64,000 bases of DNA from Streptomyces deccanensis (GTDB lineage Bacteria; Actinomycetota; Actinomycetes; Streptomycetales; Streptomycetaceae), in assembly GCF_022385335.1 (NCBI RefSeq), contig NZ_CP092431.1:2108001-2172000 (forward strand), written 5' to 3'. Under the pieces are notes generated by a model that was given only the letters and a program-made list of their open reading frames with translations, was not told where the DNA came from and ran no database searches. A program made the translations under genes and the position numbers. This document shows positions 9,367 to 26,233 of the stretch, piece after piece; within the stretch, counting starts at the first letter, position 1; every line of letters starts with the position of its first letter.

Positions 9367-9719
9367 TGGACGTTCGTGCCGGAGATCTCCGACGGCTCGT
9401 CGCAGGGGCCGCCCGAGTACGGGCTCGTGGGGCTGGCCGAGCGGAGGACGAGGGGCCCTACGGCGACGGCTGGGACGCGGCCGTCGACAGGGTCTACCAC
9501 CACGGCTCGATCGTGCTCGGCACGGACGGCTGCGCCATGAACTGGCATCTCGTCGTCAGCGGGCCCCATCGAGGACACATATGGCACATCACCGATGTGG
9601 GTGCCATGCCGTTCGGCGCGGAGTTCGGGCACACGACCTCCGCGCCCGGCTTCGGCGGCTGGGTGGCGCACTGGGCCGCCGGGAAGGAGTGGTTCGACGC
9701 CGAGTCAGCCGAGTGGTGA
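9367..9719 (+). pseudogene. Remnant of a SMI1/KNR4 (SUKH)-like gene
   Basis: Two reading frames must be joined to give a recognisable product. The first (codons from 9367) reads WTFVPEISDGSSQGPPEYG. Around 9440-9455 the sensible frame shifts to DEGPYGDGWDAAVDR, VYHHGSIVLGTDGCAMNWHL and HIWHITDVGAMPFG, running to the stop at 9719. The second part looks like the C-terminal half of SMI1/KNR4 (SUKH) proteins, which bind toxin or other partners and include contact-toxin immunity proteins. The N-terminal half is missing and replaced by a microsatellite and terminators. The 3' end overlaps the mtnK stop by 15 nt. A sequencing error or a very short intact gene are alternatives; family assignment is moderate. 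Confidence 0.5.
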
Positions 9720-10880
9720 GGCGACGAGGTCGCGGACGGCGTCCGGCGAGGTCAGCTCCGCACGGCGGACGATGAGTTCACGGCCCAGCAGCAGGGCCCG
9801 GCGCGACGCCGGGACCGGGTCGTCCAGCGTCGTCAGGTCCGTGAGGTGGGCGAAGCCGATGATGCGGCGGACGAGTTCCGTGCCGGCGAAGCCGAGGGAC
9901 TCGGTCCAGACGCGGGTCAGGAAGCGGTCCAGGTAGGCGTCGTCGAAGAAGGTGTCGACGCGGGTGGGCCACAGGCGGCGGAACTCGGTCTCGAAGGCGT
10001 CCCAGGACAGCCGGAGTTGGTCGCCGTGGTCCGTCAGGGTCCCCAGGGCGCGGGCCCGTTCCTCGGAGACCAGCGCGTTGGCCCAGTACAGGCCGAGGTC
10101 GAAGCCGATGGGGCCGACGAAGGAGAACTCGGGGTCGAAGACCCGGACGACATGGGCGCCTTCGCGTGCGCCGACCATGACGCTCCCGGAGTGGAGGTCA
10201 CCGTGGAGGAGGGCCTGGGCGCTCGTCATGAAGACATGGCGCAGGTCGGCGACCTCGGTGCGCAGCACGGTGTCCGCGCGGAACGCGGTGGCCAGGTCGT
10301 CCAGGCCCGGGTGCCAGTGGTTGTGCTCGTGCTCGATGTACGGCTCGGAGAGGACGACATCCTCGGTGATCTTGCACAGCTCCGGGTTGACCGAGGCGGC
10401 GAGCAGCGCCTTGCGGTCGGCGGAGGTCATGCCGAAGTCGCTGGTCGCGAAGGAGAGCCGGGCGACGAGGCGGCCGATCTGGGGTGAGGTGTGCGGGCCG
10501 TAGGAGGCGCCCTCGTTGAGGAGGGTGCGCAGGACCTCCAGGTCGGAGAGGTCCTCCATGACGAGGGCGTGGTTCTCGGGGTCGTAGCCGTGGATGCCGG
10601 GGATCTCGTCGGGGGCGACCTTCGCGAGCTGCTCGTACGCGCGGGCCTCGGCGTCGGCGCGGTCGGGGCTCAGCGGCCAGGAGGGGCCGGCGACGCGGAC
10701 CCAGGGCAGGGCCTGCTTGAGGGCGAGGCTGCGGGTGCCGTCCGCGTTCGAGGCGAGGAAGACGCGGTTGACGTTGCCGTCCGACACCTCGCGGACGGTG
10801 ATGTCGTCCACGTCCTCCCAGTGGCCCCGCTCGCGCAGATACGCGGGGATGTCGTCGGTCTCCAGGATGCGGTAGCCCAT
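9705..10880 (-). CDS. mtnK: 5-methylthioribose kinase MtnK
   Basis: This 391-residue cytoplasmic kinase phosphorylates methylthioribose at C1 with ATP, feeding MtnA. It has an aminoglycoside-phosphotransferase fold. A Gly-containing nucleotide loop lies near residues 34-40 (DGNVNRVF), the catalytic loop HGDLHSGS at 226-233, and the metal-binding DPEF at 249-252, all typical of MtnK. Length is normal. It is the last gene of a minus-strand operon behind binding protein, ATPase and permease genes, with only 15 nt to the permease, so the transporter probably supplies its substrate. Confidence 0.9.
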   Translation of the reverse strand: MGYRILETDDIPAYLRERGHWEDVDDITVREVSDGNVNRVFLASNADGTRSLALKQALPWVRVAGPSWPLSPDRADAEARAYEQLAKVAPDEIPGIHGYDPENHALVMEDLSDLEVLRTLLNEGASYGPHTSPQIGRLVARLSFATSDFGMTSADRKALLAASVNPELCKITEDVVLSEPYIEHEHNHWHPGLDDLATAFRADTVLRTEVADLRHVFMTSAQALLHGDLHSGSVMVGAREGAHVVRVFDPEFSFVGPIGFDLGLYWANALVSEERARALGTLTDHGDQLRLSWDAFETEFRRLWPTRVDTFFDDAYLDRFLTRVWTESLGFAGTELVRRIIGFAHLTDLTTLDDPVPASRRALLLGRELIVRRAELTSPDAVRDLVASPLG

Positions 10881-10895
10881 GGTCGGTGAACTCCC

Positions 10896-11942
10896 TTATG
10901 CGGTGCGGCGCTTGGACAAGGTGAAGCTGAAGACCAGGGCGAGGATGAGGACCGCGCCCTCGACGACGTCCTGGGTGTAGTACGGCAGGCCCTTGATGGT
11001 GAGGCCGGTCGTGATGATGCCAATGAGGACCGCGCCGAGGGCGGTGCCCCAGACGTTCGGGCGGCCCCGGCCGAGGACCGAGGTGCCGACGAGGGCGACC
11101 GCGACCGCCTCCAGCAGCTGGGAGGTGCCGGCGCTCACGTCGCCCTGGCCGATGCGGGAGGCCAGGATCAGGCCGCCGATGGAGGCGAGGACGCCGGAGA
11201 GGACGTACGCCAGCGACCGGTACGCGCCGACGCGGATGCCGGCCAGGCGGGAGGCCTCGGGGTTGGCGCCGATCGCGTAGAAGACGCGGCCCCAGCGGGT
11301 GCGGGCCAGGAAGACCCAGGCGGCGACGGTGAGCGCGCCGAAGATCAGGACGGAGATCGGGACGCCGAGGACCGTGCCCCGGTCGATCTTCAGGAAGCCG
11401 GCGGTGAACTTGCCGGGGGCGGTGGTGCCGTCCTCCAGGGTCATGCCGGGGGTGATCGACTGGCCGTCGACGAGGATCAGTTTGGTGCCCTGGATGACGA
11501 ACATGGTGCCGAGCGTGGCCAGCATGTCGGGGATCTTCAGGACGACGATCAGCAGGGCGTTGAGGAGGCCCGCGAGCGCCCCCGCCGCGAGGACGGCGAG
11601 GATCGCGACCGTGCCGATCTGGTTGAGGACGACCATGCTGTGGGCGGCGACGGAGACGCCGAGGCCGGCGACCGCTCCGACGGACATGTCCATGCCGCCG
11701 ACGGCCATGGTGAGGGTGACGCCGAGGCCGAGGATGGCGGCGACGGAGACGTACCGGAGGGTGTCGAGGAGGGTCGCCGACTCGCGGAACGAGCCCTCGC
11801 TGAGCGCGAAGTACGCGAAGAGCGCGACCGTGACGAAGATGAAGCCGTACTTGATGACGGCGTTCTGGATGCGGACGGCGGTGGAGGTGCCGGGCGGGAT
11901 CGCCGCCTTCGCCACGGGCGCGGTGCTCTGGGTGGTGGTCAT
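10896..11942 (-). CDS. Ribose-type ABC transporter permease (probable methylthioribose uptake)
   Basis: This 348-residue inner-membrane permease belongs to the RbsC/BPD_transp_2 family. It has about nine hydrophobic segments, a conserved AVGGMDMSVGAVAG near residue 81, and the cytoplasmic coupling signature AIGANPEASRLAGI. It should pair with the downstream-encoded tandem-domain ATPase and lipoprotein. The substrate cannot be read from the sequence. Being co-directional with mtnK suggests methylthioribose or a related pentose, which is an inference. The spacing of 31 nt from the ATPase gene supports one operon. Confidence 0.85.
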   Translation of the reverse strand: MTTTQSTAPVAKAAIPPGTSTAVRIQNAVIKYGFIFVTVALFAYFALSEGSFRESATLLDTLRYVSVAAILGLGVTLTMAVGGMDMSVGAVAGLGVSVAAHSMVVLNQIGTVAILAVLAAGALAGLLNALLIVVLKIPDMLATLGTMFVIQGTKLILVDGQSITPGMTLEDGTTAPGKFTAGFLKIDRGTVLGVPISVLIFGALTVAAWVFLARTRWGRVFYAIGANPEASRLAGIRVGAYRSLAYVLSGVLASIGGLILASRIGQGDVSAGTSQLLEAVAVALVGTSVLGRGRPNVWGTALGAVLIGIITTGLTIKGLPYYTQDVVEGAVLILALVFSFTLSKRRTA

Positions 11943-11973
11943 GGAAGCGCTTCCTCAGGGGGCCGGGCCGGGG

Positions 11974-13527
11974 TCACACGGACGCCGAGATGGTCTGGAT
12001 GACGCGGTCGCGTTCCGCGTCCTCGCCGTACGCGTCGAGGTGGATCTCACCGGCGGCGAGCACGACGACCCGGTCGGCGATCTCCAGGACCTCGTCGACG
12101 TCGGCGGACAGGACGAGCACGGCGGCGCCCTCGGCGGCGAGCGCGCGGGCGCGGCGGCCGATGTCCCGGCGGGCACCGATGTCCACGCCTCGGAACGGTT
12201 CGTCCAGGATGAGGACGCGGGGGGTCTCGGCCAGCCAGCGGCCGACGACGACCTTCTGCTGGTTGCCGCCGGACAGCTCCTCGACGGTGCTGTGCTCGTC
12301 GCGGGCGACGACACCGAGGCCCTCGATCGTGTCGCGGCCGAGGGCGTTCTCCCGGGCCGTGTTCAGCAGGCCCAGCCGGGACAGGGACTTCAGGAACGGC
12401 AGGGAGATGTTCCGGGCCACCGACCAGCCGGGGACGAGGGCGTCCGCGTGCCGGTCCTCGGGGACGAGGTGGACGCCGTCGCGGATGGCGTCGGCGGGGC
12501 GGCGGGGCGCGTACGCCTTGCCGTCCAGCTCGACCGTGCCGGTGGTGAAGGGTTCGGCGCCGAAGAGCCCCCGGGCCAGTTCGGTCTTGCCGGCGCCCAA
12601 CAGGCCGACGACACCGGTGACTTCACCGGCACGGAGGTCGAGGTCCAGTGGGGTGCGGCCCTCGAAGAGGCGGACGCCCCGCAGGGAGAGGACGACGTCC
12701 CCCTGGTCGCCCTCGCGGACCGGGCGGGCGGTGGTCGTCTCCTGGGCCTGGGCGAGCATCGCGCGCAGGGCGGCGTCCCAGTCGAAGGGGCGGGCCTGGT
12801 CCTCGGCGAGACGGCCGTCCCGCAGGACGACCAGTCGGTCGGCGAGGGCGTCGATCTCGCCGAGGCGGTGGGAGACGTAGAGGACCGCGATGCCGTCCGC
12901 CCGCATCCGCTCGACCAGCGCGAACAGGCGCTCGGCCTCGGCGGCGGAGAGCGCGGAGGTCGGCTCGTCGAGGATCAGCAGGCGGGGGCGGGTGGCGAGG
13001 GCGCGGGCCAGGATCAGCAACTGGCGGTCGGAGATGCCGAGTTCGGTGACGTCCTGCTTGAGGACGGCGTCGGTCCAGTCGAGGCCGAGGGCGGCCTGGA
13101 TCTCCCGGGCGCGGGCGAGCAGCCTGCTCCCGTTGAGGAACGGGTTGCCCCGGCTCTGCGCCAGCTCCTCGAACACGAGGTTCTCGGCGACGGTGAGGCC
13201 GGGGACGACGCCCTCGCTGATGCGCTGGTGGACGGTCTGGATGCCCAACTGGCGGGCGGCCAGGGGGGACTGGAGTGCCGCGGGCTCCCCTGCGATCCGT
13301 ACCTGCCCGCCGTGGTCCGTGTGCACGCCGGACAGGATCTTGATGAGGGTGGACTTGCCGGCGCCGTTCGCGCCGAGCAGCGCGACGACGCTGCCCGGTG
13401 CGATGTCCAGCGAGACGGAGGCGAGCACCGTTCTGCCCCCGAACGCCATGCTGACGTCCCGCAGGCTGACGGCGGCGATGCCCTCGCCGCCGTCAGGCTT
13501 CCCGCGACCGGTTTCAGTGGGCGACAT
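11974..13527 (-). CDS. Ribose-type ABC transporter ATPase, two fused domains
   Basis: This 517-residue RbsA-like protein carries two nucleotide-binding domains. Domain 1 has Walker A GANGAGKST, a weak signature loop LGISDRQ and Walker B LLILDEPTSAL. Domain 2 has the shortened Walker A GLLGAGKTE, a good LSGGNQQK and VLILDEPFRGVD. Asymmetric domains are usual in carbohydrate uptake type 2 ATPases. The ATG overlaps the stop of the binding-protein gene by 14 nt, so translation is coupled. It energises the permease next to it, with methylthioribose the likely cargo by context. Confidence 0.88.
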   Translation of the reverse strand: MSPTETGRGKPDGGEGIAAVSLRDVSMAFGGRTVLASVSLDIAPGSVVALLGANGAGKSTLIKILSGVHTDHGGQVRIAGEPAALQSPLAARQLGIQTVHQRISEGVVPGLTVAENLVFEELAQSRGNPFLNGSRLLARAREIQAALGLDWTDAVLKQDVTELGISDRQLLILARALATRPRLLILDEPTSALSAAEAERLFALVERMRADGIAVLYVSHRLGEIDALADRLVVLRDGRLAEDQARPFDWDAALRAMLAQAQETTTARPVREGDQGDVVLSLRGVRLFEGRTPLDLDLRAGEVTGVVGLLGAGKTELARGLFGAEPFTTGTVELDGKAYAPRRPADAIRDGVHLVPEDRHADALVPGWSVARNISLPFLKSLSRLGLLNTARENALGRDTIEGLGVVARDEHSTVEELSGGNQQKVVVGRWLAETPRVLILDEPFRGVDIGARRDIGRRARALAAEGAAVLVLSADVDEVLEIADRVVVLAAGEIHLDAYGEDAERDRVIQTISASV

Positions 13528-14623
13528 TCGAGATCCAGTCGGCGGTCGAGACCTGCGACAGGTTCAGCGCGGGGAGCGCCTTCCGCAGCTGGTCCATGTT
13601 CTCGATCTTCTTCTCGCGCAGGAAGTCCTGGGTGATGGCGACGGCCGGGAACTCGACGGAGGTCTTGTTCAGCTGACCGGCCAGCTCCAGCGCGGTCGTG
13701 CGGACCACGGCGGCGCCGACGGCGGACGGGTCGGTGCCTGCGGTGGCGACCCAGGGGCTGCCCTCGGCGGTGATGGCCTGGATGTCGGCGTTAGAGACGT
13801 CGGCGCCGAAGACCTTCACCTTGTCCTGCAGCTTCTTGTTCTGCACGGCGAGGACGGTGCCCTTGGCCAGCTCGTCGTAGGGGGCGAAGACGCCCGCCAC
13901 GTCGGAGTTCTGGGTGAGGGCGGCGGAGACGAGGGGAACGTTGTCGGTGGCCGTGGAGTCGGTGACCTTGCCGACCTTGAAGGCCTGCTTCCAGCCCTGG
14001 GCCTCGACGGTGGACTTCCAGACGGTGTCACGCTTGTCGAGGGCCGCGTAGCCGGCGACGTTCACGTAACCGACCTTGGCGTCCTTGCCGACCTCCTTGG
14101 CCATCACGTCGAGGACGGCCTGGGCCATGCTGGCGTCGTCCTGCTTGGTGGAGACGACGCCCTTCGTGGACGTCTCGACGTCGTAGACGACGACCTTGAT
14201 GCCCTTCTTCACGGCCTTGTCGATCTCCGGCTGGATCGTCGCCGGGAAGCCGTGGTCGATGATGATCGCCTTGGCGCCGGAGTTGATCGCGGAGGAGAGG
14301 TCGGTGGCCTGCTTGGCGTTGTCGGCCTGGGCGTCGTACACGGTGAGGTCGATGCCGAGGGCCTTGGCCTGCGCCTTCGCGCCGTTGCCCCACTGCTCGA
14401 AGTAGTCGCCGGCGCCGCTCTGTCTGACCAGCGCGACCTTGACGGCGCCGGCGCTGAAGGGGGCGGGCTTCTCGCCGGTGGCGGCGGATGCCTTCGCGGC
14501 GGTGTCGCCGGTGTCCTTGGAGGCGTCGGTGGACTGCGAGCAGGCCGACAGCAGCAGGGCCGAGGCAGACGCGAGGGAGAGGGCGGCGAGCGGGAGACGG
14601 GTACGGCGGGACGAACGGGACAT
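13514..14623 (-). CDS. Sugar-binding lipoprotein of the mtnK-linked ABC transporter
   Basis: This 369-residue secreted substrate-binding protein has an Arg-rich N terminus, a hydrophobic stretch and a lipobox LLLSAC, so Cys28 should be lipidated and anchor it outside the membrane. The mature part resembles periplasmic-binding family 4 (RbsB/LsrB type), with segments such as INSGAKAIIIDHGFPA and GVFAPYDELAKG. It is the first gene of binding protein-ATPase-permease-mtnK. Its start faces a 360-nt gap with palindromes and the divergent mtnDCB leader, so both operons may share control. Confidence 0.86.
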   Translation of the reverse strand: MSRSSRRTRLPLAALSLASASALLLSACSQSTDASKDTGDTAAKASAATGEKPAPFSAGAVKVALVRQSGAGDYFEQWGNGAKAQAKALGIDLTVYDAQADNAKQATDLSSAINSGAKAIIIDHGFPATIQPEIDKAVKKGIKVVVYDVETSTKGVVSTKQDDASMAQAVLDVMAKEVGKDAKVGYVNVAGYAALDKRDTVWKSTVEAQGWKQAFKVGKVTDSTATDNVPLVSAALTQNSDVAGVFAPYDELAKGTVLAVQNKKLQDKVKVFGADVSNADIQAITAEGSPWVATAGTDPSAVGAAVVRTTALELAGQLNKTSVEFPAVAITQDFLREKKIENMDQLRKALPALNLSQVSTADWISNVAH

Positions 14624-14841
14624 GACGGCTCCAGGTGCGGTGCGAAGGGAGGAAGGGAGTACTCGACCCGGAGCGGGGGCGAAAACGCGCCACCGTGACC
14701 ATGACGAGGTGCACGGTGAACGCCCGGGACAGCAGGGCGCGTCGGGGCTCCGGGAGTGGTCAGCGACAGCTGGCCGTGGTCGACCGGAGCAGGTCCACGT
14801 ACAGCCGCCGTACGAGCAGCAGCGTCTTCATACGCAGATCA

Positions 14842-14898
14842 TGAGAACGATTTCAGCCATGCGTCAAAGTAATGAGAGCGGTTTCTCAGCACGTGAGA
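14842..14898. promoter_or_regulatory. Cluster of TGAGA/TCTCA palindromes between the two mtn operons
   Basis: Three overlapping dyads are visible: TGAGAACGATTTCA (14842-14855, LacI-like), TGAGAGCGGTTTCTCA (14873-14888) and TCTCAGCACGTGAGA (14884-14898). The block is AT-richer than its surroundings and lies between divergent operons, so it is a good operator candidate for a shared regulator. The regulator is not identified, and no LacI-family gene is in this window. Confidence 0.5.
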
Positions 14899-14984: not shown

Positions 14985-15059
14985 ATGACGACATTCGACG
15001 CGACGGCGCAGCGCATGCCCGGTATGCGCTGTTGTCCCGGCGCGCCGTGTCACGCCTGA
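14985..15059 (+). CDS. Short cysteine-rich leader peptide before mtnDCB
   Basis: A 24-codon ORF begins [15 protein letters not shown] and ends CCPGAPCHA. It has three Cys and three Met codons crowded near the stop, and GTGAGG sits just upstream as a ribosome site. It ends 95 nt before mtnD. Position, size and Cys content resemble the putative leader peptides found before sulfur-metabolism operons in actinobacteria, where ribosome pausing can couple amino-acid supply to expression. A modest GTCCGG/CCGGAC stem (15097-15124) follows. Function is inferred; it could also be a chance ORF. Confidence 0.5.
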
Positions 15060-15153: not shown

Positions 15154-15753
15154 ATGACCTTGCTGACCACCTGGCCCGAGTCCGGACCGGAGACCGTGGT
15201 GCGCCGTACCGCCGACCCCGTCGAGATCGCGTCCGCTCTCGCGCCGCTCGGGGTGCGCTACGAGCAGTGGCCGATCCGTGAGGACGTTCCGTTCGACGCG
15301 GACAGTGAGACCGTGTTCGCCGCGTACGGCCCGGAGATCGAGCGGCTCAACGCCGAGGAGGGCTTCACCACGGTCGACGTCCTCGGCCTCCACCCGAGCG
15401 ACGACCCCGAGTTCCCGGTGAAGGCGAAGGCCGCGCGGGAGAAGTTCCTCCAGGAGCACACCCACGACGACGATGACGAGGTCCGCTTCTTCGTCTCCGG
15501 TTCCGGCATCTTCTACCTGCACGTGAACGGCGAGGTGCACGCGGTCTACTGCGAGAAGGGCGACCTGCTGGGCGTGCCGCGCGGGACCACCCACTGGTTC
15601 GACATGGGCACCAACCCCTCGTTCACCGCGATCCGGTTCTTCCACGAGGAGGACGGCTGGATCGGCAACTTCACCGGCTCCACCATCGCCTCCCGCTTCC
15701 CGGACTACGACACGATCGACGCCGGGTACCGACAGGACAAGGCCGCGGCGTGA
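15154..15753 (+). CDS. mtnD: Acireductone dioxygenase MtnD
   Basis: This 199-residue cupin oxidises the acireductone 1,2-dihydroxy-3-keto-5-methylthiopentene with O2. The iron form gives formate and 2-keto-4-methylthiobutyrate, the methionine precursor. Metal ligands are visible as His102, His104, an acidic residue at 108/109 and His147 (RGTTHWFD). The [11 protein letters not shown] segment seems to carry one extra Asp compared with the usual H-x-H-x3-E spacing. TGGAG lies before the ATG. Its stop overlaps the mtnC GTG by 4 nt, and it is the first structural gene of mtnD-mtnC-mtnB. Confidence 0.92.
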
Positions 15754-16484
15754 GCCTGGACTTCGACACCGGCTCCCTCGACTCCGTGGTGCTCGACATC
15801 GAGGGCACCACGAGCGCCACGGGGTTCGTCGTCGACGTGCTCTACCCGTACTCCCGCTCACGCTTCGGCGCACTGCTCGCCGAGCGGAGCGGCGATCCGG
15901 ACGTGGCGCGGGCCGTCGCGCAGGTGCGGGAGCTCATCGCCGAGCCGGACGCGGACGCGGCCCGTGTCGAGCGGGCGCTCAACTCCTGGCTCGACGAGGA
16001 CCGCAAGGCGACCCCGCTGAAGACCCTCCAGGGGATCATCTGGTCCGAGGGCTTCGCGCGCGGCGACCTCGTCTCCCACTTCTACGACGACGTCGTGCCG
16101 GCCCTGCGCGCCTGGCACGCGGCGGGCGTACGCCTCCAGGTGTACTCCTCGGGTTCCGTGGCCGCCCAGCGCGCGTGGTTCCGGTCGAGCCCCGAGGGCG
16201 ATCTGCTGCCGCTGGTCGAGGGGTTGTACGACACGGAGAACGCGGGGCCGAAGCAGGAGGCGGAGTCGTACCGCACGATCGCCTCGGCCCTCGGTCTCGC
16301 CGCGACCCCCGACCGCGTCCTCTTCCTCTCCGACCGGCCCGGCGAACTGGACGCGGCGCGGCAGGCCGGCTGGCGGACCGTCGGGGTCCGGCGGCCCGGG
16401 GAGCCGTACTACGAGCAAGGCGTCGGCGACCACCCGCAGGCGGGGACGTTCGACGAGATCACCATCACGAGGAGCACCGCATGA
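15750..16484 (+). CDS. mtnC: Enolase-phosphatase E1 MtnC
   Basis: This 244-residue HAD-superfamily enzyme enolises 2,3-diketo-5-methylthiopentyl-1-phosphate and then dephosphorylates it to the acireductone used by MtnD. The family motif VLDIEGTTS (Asp16, Glu18) replaces the usual Dx[11 protein letters not shown] and [14 protein letters not shown] are HAD motifs II and III. The GTG overlaps mtnD by 4 nt, and its own stop overlaps the mtnB ATG by 4 nt. Length is normal for bacterial MtnC. Confidence 0.93.
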
Positions 16485-17089
16485 CCACCGAGATCTCGGC
16501 ACTCGACCTGGAGGAGGCGGGCGCCGTCCTGGCCGCCGAGTCGGCCCGCTTCGCCTCCTTCGGCTGGATGCGCGGCACCTCGGGCAATCTGTCGGTGGTG
16601 CTCTCGCGCGATCCGCTGCGGCTGGCGGTGACCGCGAGCGGGCACGACAAGGGTGAACTGACGCCCGCGGACGTGGTGTTGGTGGACGGGGGCGGTGCCG
16701 CCGTGCGGGGAGGCAAGCCGTCCGCCGAGGCCGAGCTGCACGCGCGCGTGGCGGCGCTGACCGGGGCGGGGGCCGTGGTCCACGTCCACACGGTCGCCTC
16801 GGTCGCCATGGGGCGTCGTGAGCCCGGGGGCATCGTCTTCAAGGACCTGGAGATGCTCAAGGGCGTCGGCCAGCCCGCCCACGACGTCGAGGTCACGCTC
16901 CCCGTCATCGCCAACAGCCAGGACATGAAGGTGCTGGGCGACCGTCTGGAGGCCGCCCGTGACCCCCGTATGCCCGCGGTGGTCGTCGCCGGGCACGGCC
17001 TGTATGTCTGGGGCGACACGCCCCGCCAGGCCCGCCACCACACCGAAGTGGTCGAGTGGCTGCTGGAGTTGGAGCTGTCCGAGCGCTGA
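16481..17089 (+). CDS. mtnB: Methylthioribulose-1-phosphate dehydratase MtnB
   Basis: This 202-residue class II aldolase-fold zinc enzyme dehydrates methylthioribulose-1-phosphate to the diketo intermediate for MtnC. Visible motifs are GTSGNLSV, TASGHDKGEL, the zinc pair VVHVHT (His101, His103) and a C-terminal zinc His in RHHTEVVEWL. The ATG at 16481 overlaps the mtnC stop and is preceded by CACGAGGAG; a longer open frame upstream lies inside mtnC. It closes the mtnDCB operon and is followed by a bidirectional hairpin facing mtnA. Confidence 0.92.
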   Translation: MTTEISALDLEEAGAVLAAESARFASFGWMRGTSGNLSVVLSRDPLRLAVTASGHDKGELTPADVVLVDGGGAAVRGGKPSAEAELHARVAALTGAGAVVHVHTVASVAMGRREPGGIVFKDLEMLKGVGQPAHDVEVTLPVIANSQDMKVLGDRLEAARDPRMPAVVVAGHGLYVWGDTPRQARHHTEVVEWLLELELSER

Positions 17090-18577: not shown

Positions 18578-19675
18578 ATGTCCCGCACCGCCGGCGTCAC
18601 CGACGTCACCCGTTCCGCCCGCCCCACCCGCAGATCCCGCCGCTCGCTCCGGCTGGCCGCGCTCGCCACCGGCACCGTCCTGCTGGCCACCGCCTGCAAC
18701 GCCGCCGCGAAGAAGGACGGTTCCGCCGACGCCGCCGGTGGTGGCAGCGGCAGGACCTTCACGCTCGTCACGCCGGACGCCGTCGGCCAGAACGAGTTCC
18801 TGAAGAACGCCGTCACCGGTGTGAAGGCGGCGGCGAAGGCGCACGACGGCTCGCAGAAGGTCTACGAGTCCACGGACTCGGCCTCGCAGCAGCAGAACGT
18901 GCAGGCGGCGGTGGACGAACGGCCGGACGTGATCGTGCTGGTCGGCTTCGAGTTCGCGGACCTGGTCGCCCAGCAGGCCGAGGCCCACCCGAAGCAGCAG
19001 TTCCTGCTCGTGGACGCGTGCACGGAGAAGACGTTCGAGAACGTGTCGTGCGCGGTGTTCCGTGAGCACGAGGGTGTCTTCCTCGCGGGCGCGGAGGCGG
19101 GTCTGCTCAGCGAGAGCGGCAAGGTGGGTGCCGTGGACGTGCTGGACACTCCCCAGTTCCGCCGCTTCAGCGACCCGTTCGCGGCCGGTGCCAAGCACGT
19201 CGCCGCCACGACGCAGACCTCGACGCGCTTCGTCGGCGGCCAGTCCCCGTTCGACGACTCCGCCCGCGCCAAGGAGCAGGCCAACTCCCTGCTCGCCAAG
19301 GGCTACGACCAGCTCATGGCCGCCGCCGCGGCCGGCAACTACGGCGTGTTCGAGGCGGCGAAGGCCAAGGGCGCGTTCGCGTACGGCGTCGACGTCAACC
19401 AGTGCCCCTCGGCGCCGGGCACGGTCGTCGACAACGTCGTCAAGCGGACGGACGTCGCGGTGGAGAAGGGGATCGAGCGGGTCCTCGACGGCCGGACCGG
19501 CACGGTGTCGTACGGCCTGAAGGAGGGCGGTATCACCCTCACCGGTCTGGAGGACGGCGTGGAGTCGTCCCAGTGCGTGATCGCCGACCACGAGGACGTG
19601 CTGAAGAAGGTCGAGGCGCTGCGCGACCGGATCGTGTCGGGAGAGCTGAAGGTCGATGACCCCGCTGCCGCCTGA
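18578..19675 (+). CDS. BMP-family nucleoside-binding lipoprotein
   Basis: This 365-residue secreted substrate-binding protein of the Med/BMP family, which binds purine nucleosides in characterised members, has an Arg-rich signal peptide and lipobox LLATAC. Family-type segments include VTGVKAAAKAH, RPDVIVLVGFEFAD, FREHEGVFLAGAEAGLLS and a C-terminal VIADHEDVLKKVEAL. The ATG at 18578 follows GGAAGG. It starts the operon binding protein-ATPase-two permeases-phosphorylase-deaminase. With the mtn genes alongside, methylthioadenosine or related nucleosides are the likely cargo; this is inferred. Confidence 0.85.
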   Translation: MSRTAGVTDVTRSARPTRRSRRSLRLAALATGTVLLATACNAAAKKDGSADAAGGGSGRTFTLVTPDAVGQNEFLKNAVTGVKAAAKAHDGSQKVYESTDSASQQQNVQAAVDERPDVIVLVGFEFADLVAQQAEAHPKQQFLLVDACTEKTFENVSCAVFREHEGVFLAGAEAGLLSESGKVGAVDVLDTPQFRRFSDPFAAGAKHVAATTQTSTRFVGGQSPFDDSARAKEQANSLLAKGYDQLMAAAAAGNYGVFEAAKAKGAFAYGVDVNQCPSAPGTVVDNVVKRTDVAVEKGIERVLDGRTGTVSYGLKEGGITLTGLEDGVESSQCVIADHEDVLKKVEALRDRIVSGELKVDDPAAA

Positions 19676-21422
19676 CGATGCGGCGGGTGCCGGGGCCTGG
19701 CACGGGGACGGGACGTCCGAGGCGGCAGGGGTGTCGAAGGGGGACACCCCGGCCGCCGGCGCCGAGGTCCCGGCCGGCCGCGCCGACACTCCGGTTGCCG
19801 ACGCGGAGGTCCCGGCCGGCCGCGCCGACACCCCGCCCGCCGTCGAACTCCTCGGCATCACCAAGCGCTACCCCGGCACCCTCGCCAACGACCGCGTCGA
19901 CCTGACCGTCCGGCCCGGCGAGATCCACGCCCTCATGGGCGAGAACGGGGCGGGCAAGTCCACGCTCATGTCGGTCCTGTACGGCATGGAGCGCCCGGAC
20001 GCCGGCACGATCCGGCTCGACGGGCGCGAGGTGTCCTTCGCCGGGCCCGCCGCCGCGATGGCCGCCGGGCTCGGCATGGTCCACCAGAGCTTCAAGCTGT
20101 TCGACTCGCTGACGGTCGCGGAGAACGTGGTGTACGGCGCCGAGCCGCGCCGCTTCGGCCTGGTGGACCGGGCCGCGGCCCGTCGCCGGGTCCGTGAACT
20201 CGGCGCGGACCACGGCCTGTCGGTCGACCCGGACGCCCGGGTCGGCGAGCTGCCGGTCGGGCTGCGGCAGCGCGTGGAGATCCTCAAGCTGCTGCACCGC
20301 GGCGCCCGCGTCCTCATCCTGGACGAGCCGACGGCCGTGCTGACGCCCGCCGAGGCCGACGCCCTGTTCGCGGTGCTCAAGTCGCTGGCGGCGCGGGGCC
20401 GTACGGTGATCCTCGTCACGCACAAGCTGCGCGAGGTGCTGGAGGGCAGCGACCACGTGACGGTGCTGCGGGACGGCCGGGTGGTGGCCCGGCTGCGCAC
20501 CGCCGACACCACCGCCGACGAGATCGCGGCGGCCATGACAGGCCGCGCGGTGGAGTTGGACCGGGTGCACGCGCCCGGCACCCCGGGCGCCGTCGTGCTG
20601 GATGTCGACGGCCTCACCACCGACGGGGTGCGCGAGGTCGCGCTCACCGTCCGCGCCGGGGAGATCCTCGGCATCGCGGGCGTCGCGGGCAACGGCCAGA
20701 GCGAACTGGTCGAGGCCCTCGCCGGGTTGCGCCCGGTGACCTCGGGCCGGATCCGGCTGCGGGGCGAGGACGTCACCCACGCCTCGGCGACCGAACGGCG
20801 CGCCCGGGGCCTCGCGTACGTGCCGGAGGACCGTCACGCCGTGGGTACGGCACCGGCGGCGTCCGTGGCGGAGAACCTGGCCATGGGGCATCACCGTACG
20901 TCGCTGTCGGCCGGGTCCCGGATCGGTCTGCTCACGCCCGCCGCCGTACGCGACCACGCCCGGCGGCTGATCGAGCGGTTCGGCATCAGGACGCCGGGCC
21001 CCGGGGCGCCCGCGTCGGCGCTGTCCGGCGGCAATCTGCAGAAGCTCCTCATCGGCCGCGAACTCGCCCACGAGGCACCGCTGTTGCTGGTCGAGCAGCC
21101 CACGCGCGGGGTCGACATCGGCGCGGTCCAGAACATCCACGACGACCTGATCGCCCACCGCGACGCCGGTCACGCGGTCCTCCTCGTCTCCGCCGAACTG
21201 AGCGAGATCCGGGGGCTGTCGGACCGGGTGCTGGTCATGTACGAGGGCCGGGTGACCGCCGCGTACGACAAGGCCGACGCGGACGAGGGCGTGCTGGGTC
21301 TGGCGATGGCCGGCGGCAGCGGCGGGCGCGGTGCCCTCGACGACGCCGACGACGCCGACGACGCCCTCGGCACCACGAGCGCCGCCGGAGGCGGCACGGC
21401 ACCGGTGGAGGCCGGGCACTGA
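19656..21422 (+). CDS. Nucleoside-type ABC transporter ATPase, two fused domains
   Basis: This 588-residue NupO/YufO-like ATPase has Walker A GENGAGKST, signature LPVGLRQRVEI and Walker B VLILDEPTAVLT in domain 1. In domain 2 the Walker A is degenerate (GVAGNGQSE), with LSGGNLQK and LLLVEQPTRGVDIG. Degeneration of the second domain is common in this family. The first 60 residues are unusual, with two copies of AEVPAGRADTP in a Pro/Ala-rich stretch. The C terminus has a repeated DDADD tail. The ATG overlaps the lipoprotein stop by 20 nt. Confidence 0.88.
   Translation: MTPLPPDDAAGAGAWHGDGTSEAAGVSKGDTPAAGAEVPAGRADTPVADAEVPAGRADTPPAVELLGITKRYPGTLANDRVDLTVRPGEIHALMGENGAGKSTLMSVLYGMERPDAGTIRLDGREVSFAGPAAAMAAGLGMVHQSFKLFDSLTVAENVVYGAEPRRFGLVDRAAARRRVRELGADHGLSVDPDARVGELPVGLRQRVEILKLLHRGARVLILDEPTAVLTPAEADALFAVLKSLAARGRTVILVTHKLREVLEGSDHVTVLRDGRVVARLRTADTTADEIAAAMTGRAVELDRVHAPGTPGAVVLDVDGLTTDGVREVALTVRAGEILGIAGVAGNGQSELVEALAGLRPVTSGRIRLRGEDVTHASATERRARGLAYVPEDRHAVGTAPAASVAENLAMGHHRTSLSAGSRIGLLTPAAVRDHARRLIERFGIRTPGPGAPASALSGGNLQKLLIGRELAHEAPLLLVEQPTRGVDIGAVQNIHDDLIAHRDAGHAVLLVSAELSEIRGLSDRVLVMYEGRVTAAYDKADADEGVLGLAMAGGSGGRGALDDADDADDALGTTSAAGGGTAPVEAGH
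19764..19831 (+). repeat. 26-bp in-frame direct repeat in the ATPase gene
   Basis: The 26-nt sequences at 19764-19789 and 19806-19831 are identical and 42 nt apart (start to start). They encode the duplicated EVPAGRADT stretch. This is a recent duplication in a poorly constrained N-terminal extension. Confidence 0.8.
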
Positions 21423-21423
21423 C

Positions 21424-22485
21424 ATGAACCCCATACCCAGGGACCGGCTGACAGCGGTCCTCCGCTCCCCCGTCGCCTTCTCCGTCCTCGCGGGCGTCCT
21501 CATCGGCGCCCTGTTCCTGCTGGGCACGGGCGCCGACCCGCTGACCGCGTACGGCGCCGTCCTGACCGGTTCGCTCGGCGCCGACGGCATCGGCTCGACG
21601 CTCACCACCGGGACGAGTGTGCTCGGCATGGCCCTGGCGCTGGCGATCCCACTCCGCGCGGGGCTGATCAACCTCGGCGGCGACGGGCAGCTGGTCCTGG
21701 GCGGCATCACGGCCGCCGTGACCGGCCTGTACTCGCCGCTCCCGGCCCCGCTCACCGTCGTCCTCGCCCTCCTGGCGGGCATGGGGGCCGGCGCCGCGTA
21801 CGCCGCCCTGGCCGCGGTGTGCGAGAACCGGTTCGGTGTTCCACTCCTGGTCAGCAGCCTTCTGCTCAGCTATCCGGCGGTGTCGCTCGCCTCCTATCTG
21901 GCCCGCTATCCGCTCAAGGAGCCCGGCTCCAGCCTGCCCCAGACGCGCAGGCTCCCGGAGGGCGTGGCGCTGCCCGCGTTCGGCGGCTCGACGGTGACCG
22001 CGGGACTGGTGCTGGTGGTGCTCGTGGCGGTCGCGTACTGGTTCACCGACCGGCGCACGGCGCTCGGCTACGAGATCCGGATGACCGGCCTCAACCCGCG
22101 CTTCACGGCGTACGCCGGCGTGGAGCGGGCGGGGCTGACACTGCGGCTGTTGGCGGTCTCGGGTGCGCTGGCCGGGCTGGTCGGCGCGATCGGGGTGCTC
22201 AGCTTCCCGTACCGCTTCCTGGACGGCTCGCTCACCGCCCCCGGCTACACCTGGACGGGGCTGACGGCCGCGCTCCTCGCGGCGGCGGCGCCGCTCGGCA
22301 CGCTCCTCGCGTCGTTCTTCTTCGCGGTCCTCCAGGTCGGCGGGCTGTCGATGGAGCGCACGACCGAGGTGCCGCGCGAGCTGACACAGGTGCTCCAGGC
22401 CGTCGTCATCGTGTTCCTGGCGGCCCGGTCGCGGTTCCCGCGACGGTGGTCCGGCGGGCGGGACCGGCGGAAGGCGGTCGTGTGA
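21424..22485 (+). CDS. Nucleoside-type ABC transporter permease 1
   Basis: This 353-residue membrane protein of the BPD_transp_2 family (NupP/YufP-like) has about eight to ten hydrophobic helices, AGLINLGGDGQLVLGG near residue 80 and the coupling motif EIRMTGLNPRFTAYAGV. The ATG lies one base after the ATPase stop. It forms the channel with the next gene product. In characterised relatives, pairs of unequal permeases import nucleosides. Confidence 0.88.
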   Translation: MNPIPRDRLTAVLRSPVAFSVLAGVLIGALFLLGTGADPLTAYGAVLTGSLGADGIGSTLTTGTSVLGMALALAIPLRAGLINLGGDGQLVLGGITAAVTGLYSPLPAPLTVVLALLAGMGAGAAYAALAAVCENRFGVPLLVSSLLLSYPAVSLASYLARYPLKEPGSSLPQTRRLPEGVALPAFGGSTVTAGLVLVVLVAVAYWFTDRRTALGYEIRMTGLNPRFTAYAGVERAGLTLRLLAVSGALAGLVGAIGVLSFPYRFLDGSLTAPGYTWTGLTAALLAAAAPLGTLLASFFFAVLQVGGLSMERTTEVPRELTQVLQAVVIVFLAARSRFPRRWSGGRDRRKAVV

Positions 22486-23417
22486 TGTTCTTCGACTCCG
22501 ATCTCCTGATGTCCGCGTTGCGGGCGCTCACCCCCATCCTGCTGGCCGCGCTCGGCGGTGCCCTGTGCGAGCGGGCGGGGGTCTTCAACATCGGCCTCGA
22601 AGGCATGATGCTGCTGGGCTGCTTCACGGCGGTGACGACCAGCTGGTTCACCGGCAGCCCGTGGCTCGGTGTCCTCGCGGCGGCGCTGGCGGCGGCCGCG
22701 TACTCCCTCGTCCTGGCCGTCGGCGCGGTGACCCTGCGCGGGGACGCGGTGGTCCTCGGCATCGCCATGAACCTCCTCGCCGTGGGCCTGACCAGCTTCC
22801 TGCTCCGTACCGTCTTCGGCGTCCAGGGCACGTTCGACGATCCGTCGCTCGCCGGGCTCCCGCTGATCGGCGGGCTGTCCCCGCTGGCGTACCTGGCGTG
22901 GGCGTCCGTCGGGGTCGCCGCGCTCGCGCTCTCCCGCCATGTGTGGGGGCTGCGGCTGCGCGGGGTCGGCGAGGCGCCGGACGCGGCGGCCACGCTCGGG
23001 GTGAGCCCGGCCGGGTACAAGTACGCGGCGGTGCTCGTCTCCGGTGTGCTGTGCGGGCTCGCGGGTGCCCAACTCGCCCTGGGGAACGTCACGTTGTTCT
23101 CCGAGAACATGACGGCCGGCCGGGGCTGGATCGCCGTGGTGGCGGTGATGCTCGGCCGCGCGCTGCCGCTCGGCGTCCTGCTGGCGGCCCTGCTCTTCGG
23201 TCTCGCCGAGGCGGCCGGCTTCCGCCTCCAGGGGCTCGGACTGCCGCAGCAGGCGACGGACGCCGCGCCGTACGTCGTCACGCTCGGCGCCCTCTTCCTG
23301 ACGACGGCCCGCCGCCGTCGCCGTACCGGTCGCGGCACCAGCACAGGCAGCACAAGCAACACAGGCAGCACCGGCGCGCGCAGCACCGGCACGAATCACT
23401 CGGGAGCCACCGCATGA
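22485..23417 (+). CDS. Nucleoside-type ABC transporter permease 2
   Basis: This 310-residue NupQ/YufQ-like permease has CERAGVFNIGLEGMMLLG near residue 29 and the coupling region LRLRGVGEAPDAAATLGV. The start ATG shares its A with the stop of permease 1 (TGATG). The last about 25 residues after the final helix are a Ser/Thr/Gly/Asn tail (RGTSTGSTSNTGSTG) made by a short DNA repeat, which is atypical and probably unstructured. The stop overlaps the phosphorylase ATG by 4 nt. Confidence 0.87.
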   Translation: MFFDSDLLMSALRALTPILLAALGGALCERAGVFNIGLEGMMLLGCFTAVTTSWFTGSPWLGVLAAALAAAAYSLVLAVGAVTLRGDAVVLGIAMNLLAVGLTSFLLRTVFGVQGTFDDPSLAGLPLIGGLSPLAYLAWASVGVAALALSRHVWGLRLRGVGEAPDAAATLGVSPAGYKYAAVLVSGVLCGLAGAQLALGNVTLFSENMTAGRGWIAVVAVMLGRALPLGVLLAALLFGLAEAAGFRLQGLGLPQQATDAAPYVVTLGALFLTTARRRRRTGRGTSTGSTSNTGSTGARSTGTNHSGATA

Positions 23418-24181
23418 CCCAGGACCTCCTGCCCATCACCCGCATACCCAGGACCGGGCTGCCGCCGCGCGCGGTCGTGGTCGGCGACCCGGCGCGCGCC
23501 GCGGCGGTCGCCGCGCTGCTGGACGGCGCCGAGGAGGTGTCGTACCACCGTGAGTACCGTGTGTTCAGCGGGAGTTGGAAGGGTGTGCCGGTCGTGGTCG
23601 CCTCGCACGGGGTGGGCGGTCCGGGCGCGATCCTGCTGTTCCAGGAGCTGGCGGACGCGGGGGTCCGCACCTTCCTGCGGTTCGGCACGGCCGGCGCGAT
23701 GCGGCCCGGGATCGGCGACGGCGATCTCGTGATCGCCGAGGCGGCCGTGCGCGACGACGGGGTGACCCAGCAGTTGCTGCCGCCCGAGTACCCGGCCGTC
23801 TCCGCACCCGAGGCGGTCCTCGCGCTCCAGCGTGCCGCCCGCGAGGTGGGAGCGCCGCATCATCGGGGCATCGTATGGACGAGGGCGGCCTTCCAGCCCG
23901 GCCTCATCCCGCTCGACGCGTACGACCGCGCCGGACTCGCGGCCATCGAGATGGAGCTGTCCGCGCTGTACGTGACGGCTTCGCTGCGCGGTCTCCTCGC
24001 CGGCGGGGTCCTCGTCGTGGACGGTGCGAACGCCGACGAACTGGTCGACGTCGAGACCACCGGCGGCTACGACCCGCACCGCGAGGTCGTCGCACGCGGC
24101 GTGGAGCGGGGCGCGGTCGTGTCACTGGAGGCACTGCGGCTGTTGGCCGAGGAGTACGGGGTCGAGGGGGGCGCCGCGTGA
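23414..24181 (+). CDS. Nucleoside phosphorylase (NP-I family), possibly acting on methylthio-nucleosides
   Basis: This 255-residue cytosolic enzyme should split a nucleoside with phosphate into base and pentose-1-phosphate. Family motifs are VVVGDPARAAAVA (phosphate loop), SHGVGGPGA, FGTAGAMRPG and the ribose-binding IEMELSALYVTAS. It looks closest to hexameric uridine or purine phosphorylases rather than trimeric MTA phosphorylase. Tight coupling to a nucleoside importer and an MTA-deaminase-like gene suggests methylthioinosine phosphorolysis to methylthioribose-1-phosphate for MtnA. Uridine or inosine are alternatives. Confidence 0.82.
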   Translation: MTQDLLPITRIPRTGLPPRAVVVGDPARAAAVAALLDGAEEVSYHREYRVFSGSWKGVPVVVASHGVGGPGAILLFQELADAGVRTFLRFGTAGAMRPGIGDGDLVIAEAAVRDDGVTQQLLPPEYPAVSAPEAVLALQRAAREVGAPHHRGIVWTRAAFQPGLIPLDAYDRAGLAAIEMELSALYVTASLRGLLAGGVLVVDGANADELVDVETTGGYDPHREVVARGVERGAVVSLEALRLLAEEYGVEGGAA

Positions 24182-25476
24182 GCGAGCACGTCGATCTGCT
24201 GGTCACCGGCGGTGACGTCCTGACCGTCGACGAGGCCGGTACCCGGCTGCGGGACGGGGCCGTCGCCGTCCGGGACGGCGAGATCCTCGCGGTCGGACCG
24301 GCGGCGGAACTGGACGCGGCCTACGCGGCGGCCGAGACCCTCGACGCCGAGGGCTGTCTGGTGCTCCCCGGGCTCGTCAACGCCCATACGCACCTGGCGA
24401 TGACGCTGCTGCGGGGGCGCGCGGACGACGTCACCCTCCAGGGGTTCCTGGAGCGGGTGCTGCGGTGGGAGGCGCGCCTGCTGTCGCCGAAGAACGTGGC
24501 GGCGGCGGTGCGGGTGGCGATCGCCGAGAGCCTGCGGGCCGGGGTGACGTCCGCGCTGGACATGTACTGGTTCCACGAGGCGGCCGAGCGGGTCGCGCGC
24601 GAGACGGGCTGGCGGCTGCACACCGGCCCGACCTTCATGGACGTCCCCGACCCCGCCGACGGCAGGGCGTACGAGGAGCGGCTGGAGTGGGCCCGGCGGG
24701 ACCTCGCCGACCGCTCCCACCGGCCGGGGACGCGTCCGGTGCTCTTCGCGCACTCGACGTACACGCTCGCCCCGGACCAGCTGCTCGGCATAGCCGCGCT
24801 GGCGCGGGAGTTCGGGGCGCTGCTGCACATCCACGCGGCGGAGAACGCCACCGAGGTCGCCACGGTCGAGGTGCGGCACGGCAAGCGCCCGGTGGAGCTG
24901 CTGGACTCGCTCGGGCTGCTCGGCCCCGATCTGCTGCTCGCCCACGCGGTCGACCTCACCGGCCCGGAGATAGCGGCGCTGGCCCGGACCGGGACCTCGG
25001 TCGCGCACTGCCCGGTGTCGAACCTGAAACTGGGGTGCGGGATCGCGCCCGTCCCCCGGCTGCTGGGCGCGGGCGTCACGGTCGCGCTGGGCACGGACGG
25101 CGCGGTCAGCTCCAACACGCTGGACGTGCTGGGTGCCGTCCGGCAGGCGGCGCTGGTGCACAAGGCGGGCGGCGACCCCACGGCCGTCGGCGCGGAGCAG
25201 GCGGTGCGCATGGCGACGATCGAGGGGGCCCGCGCGCTGGGTCTCGGCGATCACCTGGGTTCCCTGGAGCCGGGCAAGCGGGCCGATCTGATCGTGCTCG
25301 ACCTGGGCGGCCCGCATCTGCGGCCGCTGCACGACCCGTGGTCCACCCTCGCCTACGCGGCGCACTCGGCGGACGTACGCGACACGGTCGTCGAGGGGAG
25401 GGTGCTCATGCGCGAGCGGGTCCTCACCACCCTCGACGAGGCGGCGGCCCTGGCCGACCTGGAGGCTTTGGCCTGA
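24178..25476 (+). CDS. Amidohydrolase, probable 5'-methylthioadenosine/S-adenosylhomocysteine deaminase
   Basis: This 432-residue amidohydrolase-superfamily enzyme is of the MtaD/SAH-deaminase type. Metal and catalytic residues are NAHTHLAMTLLRG (His70, His72), LHIHAAEN (His219, Glu222), LLAHAVDL (His256) and ALGTDGAVSSNTLDV (Asp307). SNLKLGCGIAPVPRL is also typical of this group. It would convert MTA to methylthioinosine, the substrate proposed for the neighbouring phosphorylase. The GTG start overlaps the phosphorylase stop by 4 nt. Other aryl-amine deaminations are possible. Confidence 0.82.
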   Translation: MSEHVDLLVTGGDVLTVDEAGTRLRDGAVAVRDGEILAVGPAAELDAAYAAAETLDAEGCLVLPGLVNAHTHLAMTLLRGRADDVTLQGFLERVLRWEARLLSPKNVAAAVRVAIAESLRAGVTSALDMYWFHEAAERVARETGWRLHTGPTFMDVPDPADGRAYEERLEWARRDLADRSHRPGTRPVLFAHSTYTLAPDQLLGIAALAREFGALLHIHAAENATEVATVEVRHGKRPVELLDSLGLLGPDLLLAHAVDLTGPEIAALARTGTSVAHCPVSNLKLGCGIAPVPRLLGAGVTVALGTDGAVSSNTLDVLGAVRQAALVHKAGGDPTAVGAEQAVRMATIEGARALGLGDHLGSLEPGKRADLIVLDLGGPHLRPLHDPWSTLAYAAHSADVRDTVVEGRVLMRERVLTTLDEAAALADLEALA

Positions 25477-25494
25477 TGGACTCGGTGGAGCCCG

Positions 25495-25519
25495 CATAAT
25501 GGCCTGATACATCGGATGT
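25495..25519 (+). promoter_or_regulatory. Promoter and operator candidate of the FadR-type regulator
   Basis: CATAAT (25495-25500) is a good -10. Nine bases on, ACATCGGATGT (25509-25519) is a perfect odd-centred palindrome at the expected start point, in the size range of GntR/FadR operators. It suggests autoregulation; no second copy was noticed before the mtn operons. Confidence 0.5.
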
Positions 25520-25561
25520 CTGAACGCCCGGAACGGCCGGAAACGACAGGGAGGGGTCGCC

Positions 25562-26233
25562 ATGGCAGTCACCGACGAGGCGATCGAGAAGATCAAGGGC
25601 ATGATCGTCTCCGGCGCGCTGCGCCCCGGCGACCGGCTCCCGAAGGAGAGCGAGCTCGCGGCCGACCTCGGGCTGTCCCGCAACTCCCTGCGCGAGGCCG
25701 TGCGCGCCCTGTCGTTGATCCGCATCCTGGACGTACGGCAGGGCGACGGCACCTATGTGACCAGCCTCGATCCCCAACTCCTGCTGGAGGCGATGAGTTT
25801 CGTCGTCGACTTCCACCGCGACGACACGGTCCTGGAGTTCCTCGCCGTGCGCCGCATACTGGAACCGGCGGCGACGGCGATGGCCGCCCTGCGGATCAGC
25901 GAGCAGCAACTGGACGCGCTGGCGGCCCAGTTGGACAAGCTCGGCACCGATCCGTCGGTGGAGGAACTGGTCGCCTGCGACCTGGAGTTCCACCGGGGCA
26001 TCGTGCAGACCTCCGGGAACTCCGTGCTGTGTTCGCTTCTCGACGGCCTGTCGGGTCCGACCACGCGGGCCCGCATCTGGCGCGGACTGACCCAGGAGGA
26101 CGCCGTCAGCCGGACCCTGCACGAGCACCGCGCCATCCTGGCCGCCCTGCGCGACCGCGACGCCGACGCCGCGCGCTCCTGGGCGACGGTGCACATCGCG
26201 AGCGTGGAGCAGTGGCTGCGATCGTCGCTGTGA
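25562..26233 (+). CDS. GntR-family regulator, FadR subfamily
   Basis: This 223-residue regulator has an N-terminal GntR winged helix (RLPKESELAADLGLSRNSLREAVRAL, split as residues about 27-52) and a helical FCD effector domain with metal-type ligands (DLEFHRGIV, TLHEHRAIL). GGGAGG precedes the ATG. It lies 85 nt after the deaminase gene on the same strand with its own promoter-like sequence. It may control the salvage operons or only itself; the ligand is unknown. Confidence 0.85.
   Translation: MAVTDEAIEKIKGMIVSGALRPGDRLPKESELAADLGLSRNSLREAVRALSLIRILDVRQGDGTYVTSLDPQLLLEAMSFVVDFHRDDTVLEFLAVRRILEPAATAMAALRISEQQLDALAAQLDKLGTDPSVEELVACDLEFHRGIVQTSGNSVLCSLLDGLSGPTTRARIWRGLTQEDAVSRTLHEHRAILAALRDRDADAARSWATVHIASVEQWLRSSL

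Follow-up and report, generated by a model that had tools for sequence, protein, structure and literature searches.

We analysed a 64-kb window of the Streptomyces deccanensis genome (positions 2,108,001-2,172,000 of one 10.1-Mb contig), in which a gene cluster spanning positions 9705-25476 of the window combines methionine salvage genes with two ATP-binding cassette (ABC) importers, one of the ribose type and one of the BMP type. An initial annotation, made from the sequence alone, had listed mtnK with a ribose-type importer, mtnDCB, mtnA, a BMP-type importer with a nucleoside phosphorylase and a deaminase, and a FadR-type gene. NCBIfam and Pfam searches recovered every gene named there, and mtnA was reassigned to the minus strand. 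The ribose-type importer and mtnK lie on the minus strand, mtnDCB on the plus strand, mtnA on the minus strand, and the BMP importer, phosphorylase and deaminase on the plus strand; this arrangement suggests four transcription units, with mtnA pointing towards mtnDCB and away from the BMP operon. Below, mtrS denotes the lipoprotein gene of the ribose-type importer (proposed to bind methylthioribose), bmpS that of the BMP-type importer, and L and G numbers the fetched loci and genomes, respectively. The results indicate that the locus is a genuine and conserved supercluster for the uptake and salvage of sulfur compounds.

Four of the five methionine salvage enzymes exceeded their curated NCBIfam equivalog cut-offs: the S-methyl-5-thioribose kinase MtnK (9705..10880, minus strand; TIGR01767, 409 bits, cut-off 275), the S-methyl-5-thioribose-1-phosphate isomerase MtnA (17186..18217, minus strand; TIGR00512, 426 bits, cut-off 279), the methylthioribulose-1-phosphate dehydratase MtnB (16481..17089, plus strand; TIGR03328, 172 bits, cut-off 137) and the acireductone synthase (enolase-phosphatase) MtnC (15750..16484, plus strand; TIGR01691, 227 bits, cut-off 128). 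The acireductone dioxygenase MtnD (15154..15753, plus strand, start placed by inspection; the longest open reading frame (ORF) runs from 15103) had no NCBIfam match and passed the Pfam ARD cut-off (PF03079, 95 bits against 27). MtnC and MtnD handle the methylthio-carrying intermediates downstream in this pathway. The cluster thus holds all five of these enzymes of universal methionine salvage, from which it differs in its two flanking importers and in an extra deaminase/phosphorylase entry. No transaminase (MtnE) was present among the annotated genes of the cluster; the rest of the genome was not searched for MtnE.

The ribose-type importer, a proposed methylthioribose importer, consists on the minus strand of a permease (10896..11942, matching NCBIfam ribose/arabinose-type permeases below equivalog cut-offs), a double ATPase (11974..13527, AraG/XylG-type in NCBIfam, below cut-offs) and the substrate-binding lipoprotein encoded by mtrS (13514..14623). 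The closest relative of this lipoprotein, by both sequence and fold, was the 5-methylthioribose-binding protein TLET_1677 of Thermotoga lettingae (4ry8), yet the two are only about 38% identical; we propose that the lipoprotein binds methylthioribose. No paper was found for '4RY8' in the open-access literature. Methylthioribose importers are not new in themselves, since a review (PMC6302742) cites Borriss et al. 2018 for methylthioribose transporters.

The BMP/PnrA-type importer is complete and encoded on the plus strand. It comprises the lipoprotein encoded by bmpS (18581..19675; PF02608, 145 bits, cut-off 24), which from its genomic context is proposed to bind methylthioadenosine (MTA), an ABC ATPase (19656..21422, true start possibly later; best NCBIfam match NF047930, 453 bits, below the cut-off of 670) and two PF02653 permeases (21424..22485 and 22485..23417, matching NF047929 and NF047928, respectively, below cut-off). 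The operon continues with the nucleoside phosphorylase (23414..24181; PF01048, PNP_UDP_1), a proposed methylthioinosine phosphorylase, and the amidohydrolase (24178..25476), a proposed MTA deaminase.

The first three solved relatives of the deaminase were 4f0r, named as an MTA/S-adenosylhomocysteine (SAH) deaminase, 4dyk and 4gbd (285 to 282 bits); we take the latter two to be the Pseudomonas MTA deaminase. By inspection, the metal-ligand motifs NAHTH, HIHAAE, AHAVDL and GTDGA align with those of MTA/SAH deaminases. The protein passed no NCBIfam equivalog cut-off (best PRK09045, 400 bits against 540; PRK15493, 211 against 779), so that both MTA and related 5'-deoxynucleosides are candidate substrates. 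Nor was any NCBIfam equivalog cut-off passed by the phosphorylase; it is of the type of uridine phosphorylase and the Plasmodium falciparum purine nucleoside phosphorylase (PfPNP), not MTAP-like, and its best solved relative was 3mb8 (125 bits). The Pseudomonas methylthioinosine phosphorylase is presumably of the MTAP-like type. Accessible text of the review PMC6302742 describes the Pseudomonas route as deaminating MTA before phosphorolysis. Our proposed order is the same as in Pseudomonas aeruginosa and the deaminase is of the same type, whereas the phosphorylase type differs and an importer is coupled to the pair. The methylthioinosine route envisaged in the initial annotation is supported for the deaminase, which matches MTA/SAH deaminases, and weaker for the phosphorylase, which is not MTAP-like.

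We aligned 77 phosphorylase orthologues, drawn from 78 loci with the gene, and compared their active sites with that of PfPNP, which is of the same broad type and accepts methylthioinosine (PMC3885546). The position of PfPNP His7, which contacts the 5'-OH, was occupied by I, V or L in all 77 sequences and never by His. D206 (the purine Asp), E184, M183, R88 and R45, including the phosphate-binding Arg, were kept in 77/77; at the Val66 position 75 sequences had V and 2 had I, and at the Val73 position 64 had I. The Tyr160 position was Phe throughout (77/77). In that mutant study of PfPNP, the inosine/methylthioinosine ratio fell from 1.6 to 0.1 with His7Ser and to 0.3 with His7Phe, and Val73Ile had little effect; it was 2.2 with His7Ala, which did not favour methylthioinosine, and rose to 12 with Tyr160Phe, which lowered methylthioinosine use at least tenfold (PMC3885546). 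Taken with these ratios, the residues of the pocket favour 5'-deoxy-type nucleosides on balance, although the evidence is not one-sided. Because of the Phe at the Tyr160 position, we call the phosphorylase PfPNP-like in type and do not count it as a member of the methylthioinosine-using PfPNP type.

The gene set was conserved as a unit within Streptomyces. A deaminase scan confirmed 132 places, and the best 80 of the 132 were analysed as loci (by record title 76 Streptomyces, 2 Actinacidiphila and 2 other actinobacterium). Since 55 of the 80 carried mtnDCB, mtnA, bmpS, phosphorylase and deaminase together, the gene order is more than chance; the methylthioribose-binding gene was in reach in 36 of these 55, and the phosphorylase lay in the fetched stretch of 78/80 loci. 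In a sample of 199 Streptomyces genomes, we found mtnB in 26, bmpS in 21, mtnK in 17 and a deaminase orthologue (at least 74% identity) in 27, with some deaminase match at E 1e-80 in 34. The survey of co-occurrence proposed earlier bore out the link: all 21 genomes with bmpS also had mtnB and the deaminase, and among the 178 genomes lacking bmpS, 5 had mtnB (Fisher p 5e-24, a test that ignores the shared ancestry of the sampled species and so overstates their independence). The deaminase occurred without mtnB in four genomes and mtnB without the deaminase in three.

The same importer was found in differently built salvage clusters outside Streptomyces. In a class-wide sample of 296 genomes, bmpS matched at E 1e-40 in four, namely the present genome and three from two other families. 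One of these families, sampled with 180 genomes, had bmpS in 23, and mtnB occurred in 21 of these compared with 4/157 genomes lacking bmpS; the second family had bmpS in 2/22 genomes. We fetched 20 non-Streptomyces loci, from 18 of the 23 genomes and from both genomes of the second family, and at least one mtn gene stood beside the BMP importer in 18 of them. The exceptions were L115, with only the hydrolase in its stretch and the genome's mtnB on another contig, and L119, which lies where a contig begins. Of the 20 loci, 15 have a nucleoside hydrolase (PF01156, checked for two) instead of the phosphorylase and deaminase. L101 and L102 have the order mtnD-bmpSAPP-mtnA-hydrolase-mtnK-mtnC-mtnB, with another gene between mtnD and bmpS in L102, and L117 shows a Streptomyces-like arrangement (phosphorylase 64%, deaminase 71%). 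The nearest named relatives of the L103 BMP protein were from Herbidospora, Acrocarpospora, Sphaerisporangium and Nonomuraea. Furthermore, mtnK and at least one methylthioribose-importer gene adjoin the BMP cluster in nine loci (L103, L109, L113, L116, L118, L120, L122, L123 and L125), which shows the layout with two routes again, here with another nucleoside-splitting enzyme. The best argument for the BMP importer supplying methionine salvage is this re-assortment, because hydrolase plus MtnK, like deaminase plus phosphorylase, would turn imported MTA into methylthioribose-1-phosphate. As a separate observation, L102 carries at 12106-13290 a class I/II aminotransferase gene divergent from mtnD, with an 87% identical relative in L101, which is a candidate for the missing last transaminase.

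The gaps between the operons hold short ORFs in which Cys codons come late. The methylthioribose operon is preceded by MKTLLLVRRLYVDLLRSTTASCR (14760..14831, minus strand), which takes the form MKTLLLVRRLYVDLLRSTTA[S/R]CR with few changes among loci; upstream of the BMP operon lies MLLTMRRFLDHGRCASDGCRR (18375..18440, plus strand, GTG start), of the form MLLT.RRFLD.GRCA.D.C; and a candidate Cys-containing leader precedes mtnDCB (14985..15059, plus strand). The leader survey took upstream regions of at least 450 bases from genes matched over 60% of their length, covering 27 of at least 36 mtrS loci. A joint pattern for the first two leaders matched 27/27 mtrS and 51/56 bmpS upstream regions (exceptions L016, L037, L051, L077 and L085) and none in eight control regions, those of mtnD (50), mtnA (58), phosphorylase (77), deaminase (80), gntR (61), pac2 (65), glpK (17) and glpD (17). 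It had 95 matches in the 80 loci, of which 88 preceded mtrS or bmpS by at most 700 bases, three were the mtrS leader at a locus edge and four look like chance; in the window it matched only the mtrS and bmpS leaders. A looser Cys-leader pattern, of the type of the mtnDCB candidate, matched 31/50 mtnD and 2/56 bmpS upstream regions and none in the other eight. No Streptomyces-like Cys leader stood ahead of bmpS in the 20 non-Streptomyces loci, which places leader control outside the core that the families share.

Codon position 3 was the most variable among the bmpS leaders, varying in 13 of 17 columns compared with 6 and 8 for the other positions (33 distinct of 48), as in translated sequence. 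Among the mtrS leaders, positions 1, 2 and 3 varied in 6, 1 and 5 of 24 columns (15 distinct of 39), which says less on translation. A -10-like CATGAT followed after six bases by the ATG suggests that the mtrS leader ORF may be leaderless. Against the 'putative leader peptide' model NF042934 (cut-off 27), the mtrS leader scored 25.1 bits and the bmpS leader of L086 26.3 bits, the latter also scoring 21.7 bits against NF042933 (cut-off 45); these scores under curated cut-offs indicate resemblance to NF042934, not membership. The bmpS and mtnD leaders of the window had no NCBIfam match. A terminator scan of 14600-18700 found no terminator-like site, and the three matches from an Rfam search over 9000-28000 all fell far short of their gathering scores. 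Cys-rich leaders ahead of cysteine operons have been proposed in actinobacteria, as far as the accessible text of two papers goes (PMC1262725, PMC4633059). The present leaders share with the Cys-rich leader peptides of mycobacteria and with NF042934 and NF042933 a short ORF, Arg-Arg, late Cys codons and a sulfur-related operon, with one of the two possibly leaderless, but they score below the curated cut-offs and precede methylthioribose and nucleoside importers. From these patterns we infer cysteine-responsive control of both importers.

Together, these results make it quite probable that the locus is a sulfur-scavenging supercluster with two entry routes, its substrates, direction of flow and attenuation mechanism being predicted from the observed gene content, family matches, conserved leaders and co-occurrence. 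Methylthioribose would enter through the ribose-type ABC importer and be phosphorylated by MtnK to methylthioribose-1-phosphate. MTA would be brought in by the BMP-type ABC importer and deaminated to methylthioinosine, which the PfPNP-type phosphorylase would split into hypoxanthine and methylthioribose-1-phosphate. MtnA, MtnB, MtnC and MtnD would then take both routes towards ketomethylthiobutyrate, with the final transaminase outside the cluster. The cysteine-codon leaders at the two importer operons, and probably also at mtnDCB, would switch these on at cysteine, hence sulfur, shortage. The earlier proposal that both substrates are imported and converge on methylthioribose-1-phosphate gains support from the 4ry8 match, the deaminase match, the phosphorylase lacking His7, the Cys leaders, and the co-occurrence and re-assortment of BMP and mtn genes in three families. 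MTA is the most likely substrate of the BMP system, judged from its gene neighbourhoods. With moderate confidence, we further propose that this system is a dedicated bacterial MTA importer whose orthologous group, found in several actinobacterial families, is wired to methionine salvage and paired with either of two non-homologous splitting modules (the deaminase with the phosphorylase, or a nucleoside hydrolase with MtnK), and that in Streptomyces the MTA and methylthioribose importers form a sulfur-starvation scavenging regulon under cysteine-codon leader control.

Several observations weigh against the reading with two entry routes, in addition to the Phe at the Tyr160 position, the missed equivalog cut-offs and the shared ancestry behind the Fisher values. 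Two of the 23 bmpS genomes in the 180-genome family lacked mtnB. AlphaFold modelled the BMP lipoprotein too poorly (pLDDT 48.8) for a view of its pocket or a fold search. Both leader patterns, the joint one and the looser mtnD one, were composed after the leaders had been seen, and all 77 phosphorylase upstream regions were without the joint pattern. In 19 of the 80 loci, the fetched stretch held phosphorylase and deaminase and no bmpS, mtnB, mtnD or mtnA, most of them showing the pair alone. In two of these 19 (L066, L074) the contig breaks off next to BMP permease genes, and two retain a piece of a BMP permease gene (L033, L034), which suggests that the rest of the cluster was lost there. 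Finally, the genome encodes elsewhere an MTA phosphorylase (PRK07823, 457 bits, cut-off 306; TIGR01694, 290 bits, cut-off 275). This enzyme scores above the cut-off of the methylthioinosine phosphorylase model PRK09136 as well (229 bits against 223). The cluster phosphorylase is therefore in principle dispensable for that step, and the deaminase route is an addition and not the only route for MTA.

An unlikely alternative is that the true substrates are other 5'-deoxynucleosides, mainly 5'-deoxyadenosine together with 5-deoxyribose, and that MtnK and MtnA act on deoxy sugars. The deaminase scored 333 bits against the 5'-deoxyadenosine deaminase model, below the cut-off of 522, which is compatible with such a role; however, MtnC and MtnD, with their methylthio-carrying intermediates, belong to the cluster at 55/80 loci, the cysteine leaders point to sulfur, and the closest fold match of the ribose-type lipoprotein is a methylthioribose-binding protein. 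In the accessible part of PMC6079011, the MtnK relative DrdK uses 5-deoxyribose and methylthioribose about equally, and 5-deoxyribose disposal clusters likewise contain MtnK- and MtnA-like enzymes and, in some genomes, sugar transporters; those clusters use an aldolase, whereas MtnB, MtnC and MtnD would here keep the sulfur.

We consider it improbable that ordinary purine nucleosides such as adenosine and inosine are what the BMP importer, phosphorylase and deaminase recover, and that these genes merely adjoin the mtn genes. BMP proteins commonly bind ordinary nucleosides, and the genome has a paralogous locus (L089 2653-11700, at about 7.835-7.844 Mb) in which a BMP importer, adjoining a regulator that is LacI-like by its opening sequence, accompanies a 42% identical amidohydrolase and a DeoD-type phosphorylase, with no match to the mtn genes of the cluster in the L089 stretch. 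The phosphorylase of that locus was classed as DeoD-type; its row in our alignment was misaligned near the start, where the sequence reads TPHIS. The Phe at the Tyr160 position and the 19 reduced loci also fit ordinary purine salvage. Against it stand the mtnB gene in 21/21 bmpS-positive Streptomyces genomes, the presence of bmpS in differently ordered mtn clusters of two other families, and the absence from the phosphorylase of the His that contacts the 5'-OH in PfPNP. In addition, a scan of the fetched loci and the window found the Cys leader pattern at the importers of the cluster, while the two paralogous BMP loci, L089 and L090, had none. It is very improbable that the cluster chiefly recycles internally made MTA with importers just recovering leakage: the ordinary MTA phosphorylase elsewhere implies that internal MTA is presumably made and handled, but each of the two importers lies beside the first enzymes of its own route, and Cys leaders precede the importer operons.

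Cells that employ S-adenosylmethionine in several reactions generate MTA. By title and the start of the abstract, the open-access literature gave no account of this locus or of a dedicated bacterial MTA importer, and the accessible part of PMC10986504 held nothing on importers. For Rhodospirillum rubrum grown on MTA, the importer is described as unidentified in the available text of PMC4958253, with the methionine transporter MetINQ only suggested. The pathway is known; what looks new is the pairing with importers, the exchange of one splitting module for another, and the control by leaders. The two-route locus thus offers a concrete candidate MTA importer, associated with methionine salvage genes in three actinobacterial families, together with a testable regulatory hypothesis.

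Other genes of the genome place the cluster in context. Six PF01048 matches were found, including the cluster phosphorylase, and a second mtnA-like gene, 51% identical, lies at 4.12 Mb (G000:C1 4,124,357-4,125,373). As mtnA matched at E 1e-50 in 175/199 Streptomyces genomes and mtnB in only 26, the widespread mtnA copy probably serves something else. The cluster thus comes on top of a basic MTA-handling set.

The notion of a dedicated salvage system with two entry routes gained support for the two routes and not for its regulator. The GntR/FadR-type (FCD) gene at 25562-26233, identified by family match, was rejected as the cluster's own regulator: relatives (67-100% identical) occurred at E 1e-80 in 123/199 Streptomyces genomes, most of them without a deaminase orthologue, compared with the 27 that have one. 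It was not in the fetched stretch of 11 of the 55 full clusters, some stretches being short, and we treat it as a flanking gene. The other flanks hold a B12-dependent methionine synthase, an IclR regulator, glycerol genes, a PAC2 protein and a cysteinyl-tRNA-synthetase-like gene. At the same glpD-PAC2 site, L107, L108, L026, L038, L054, L061 and others had only phosphorylase and deaminase; their stretches contained neither bmpS nor mtn genes, and the leader pattern was absent. In L011 (S. caniscabiei; 9821-10001), the deaminase follows directly after mtnA, the BMP importer and phosphorylase being missing between them. The mtnK matches of G068 and G183 contained one in-frame TGA each, suggesting mtnK decay in both genomes.

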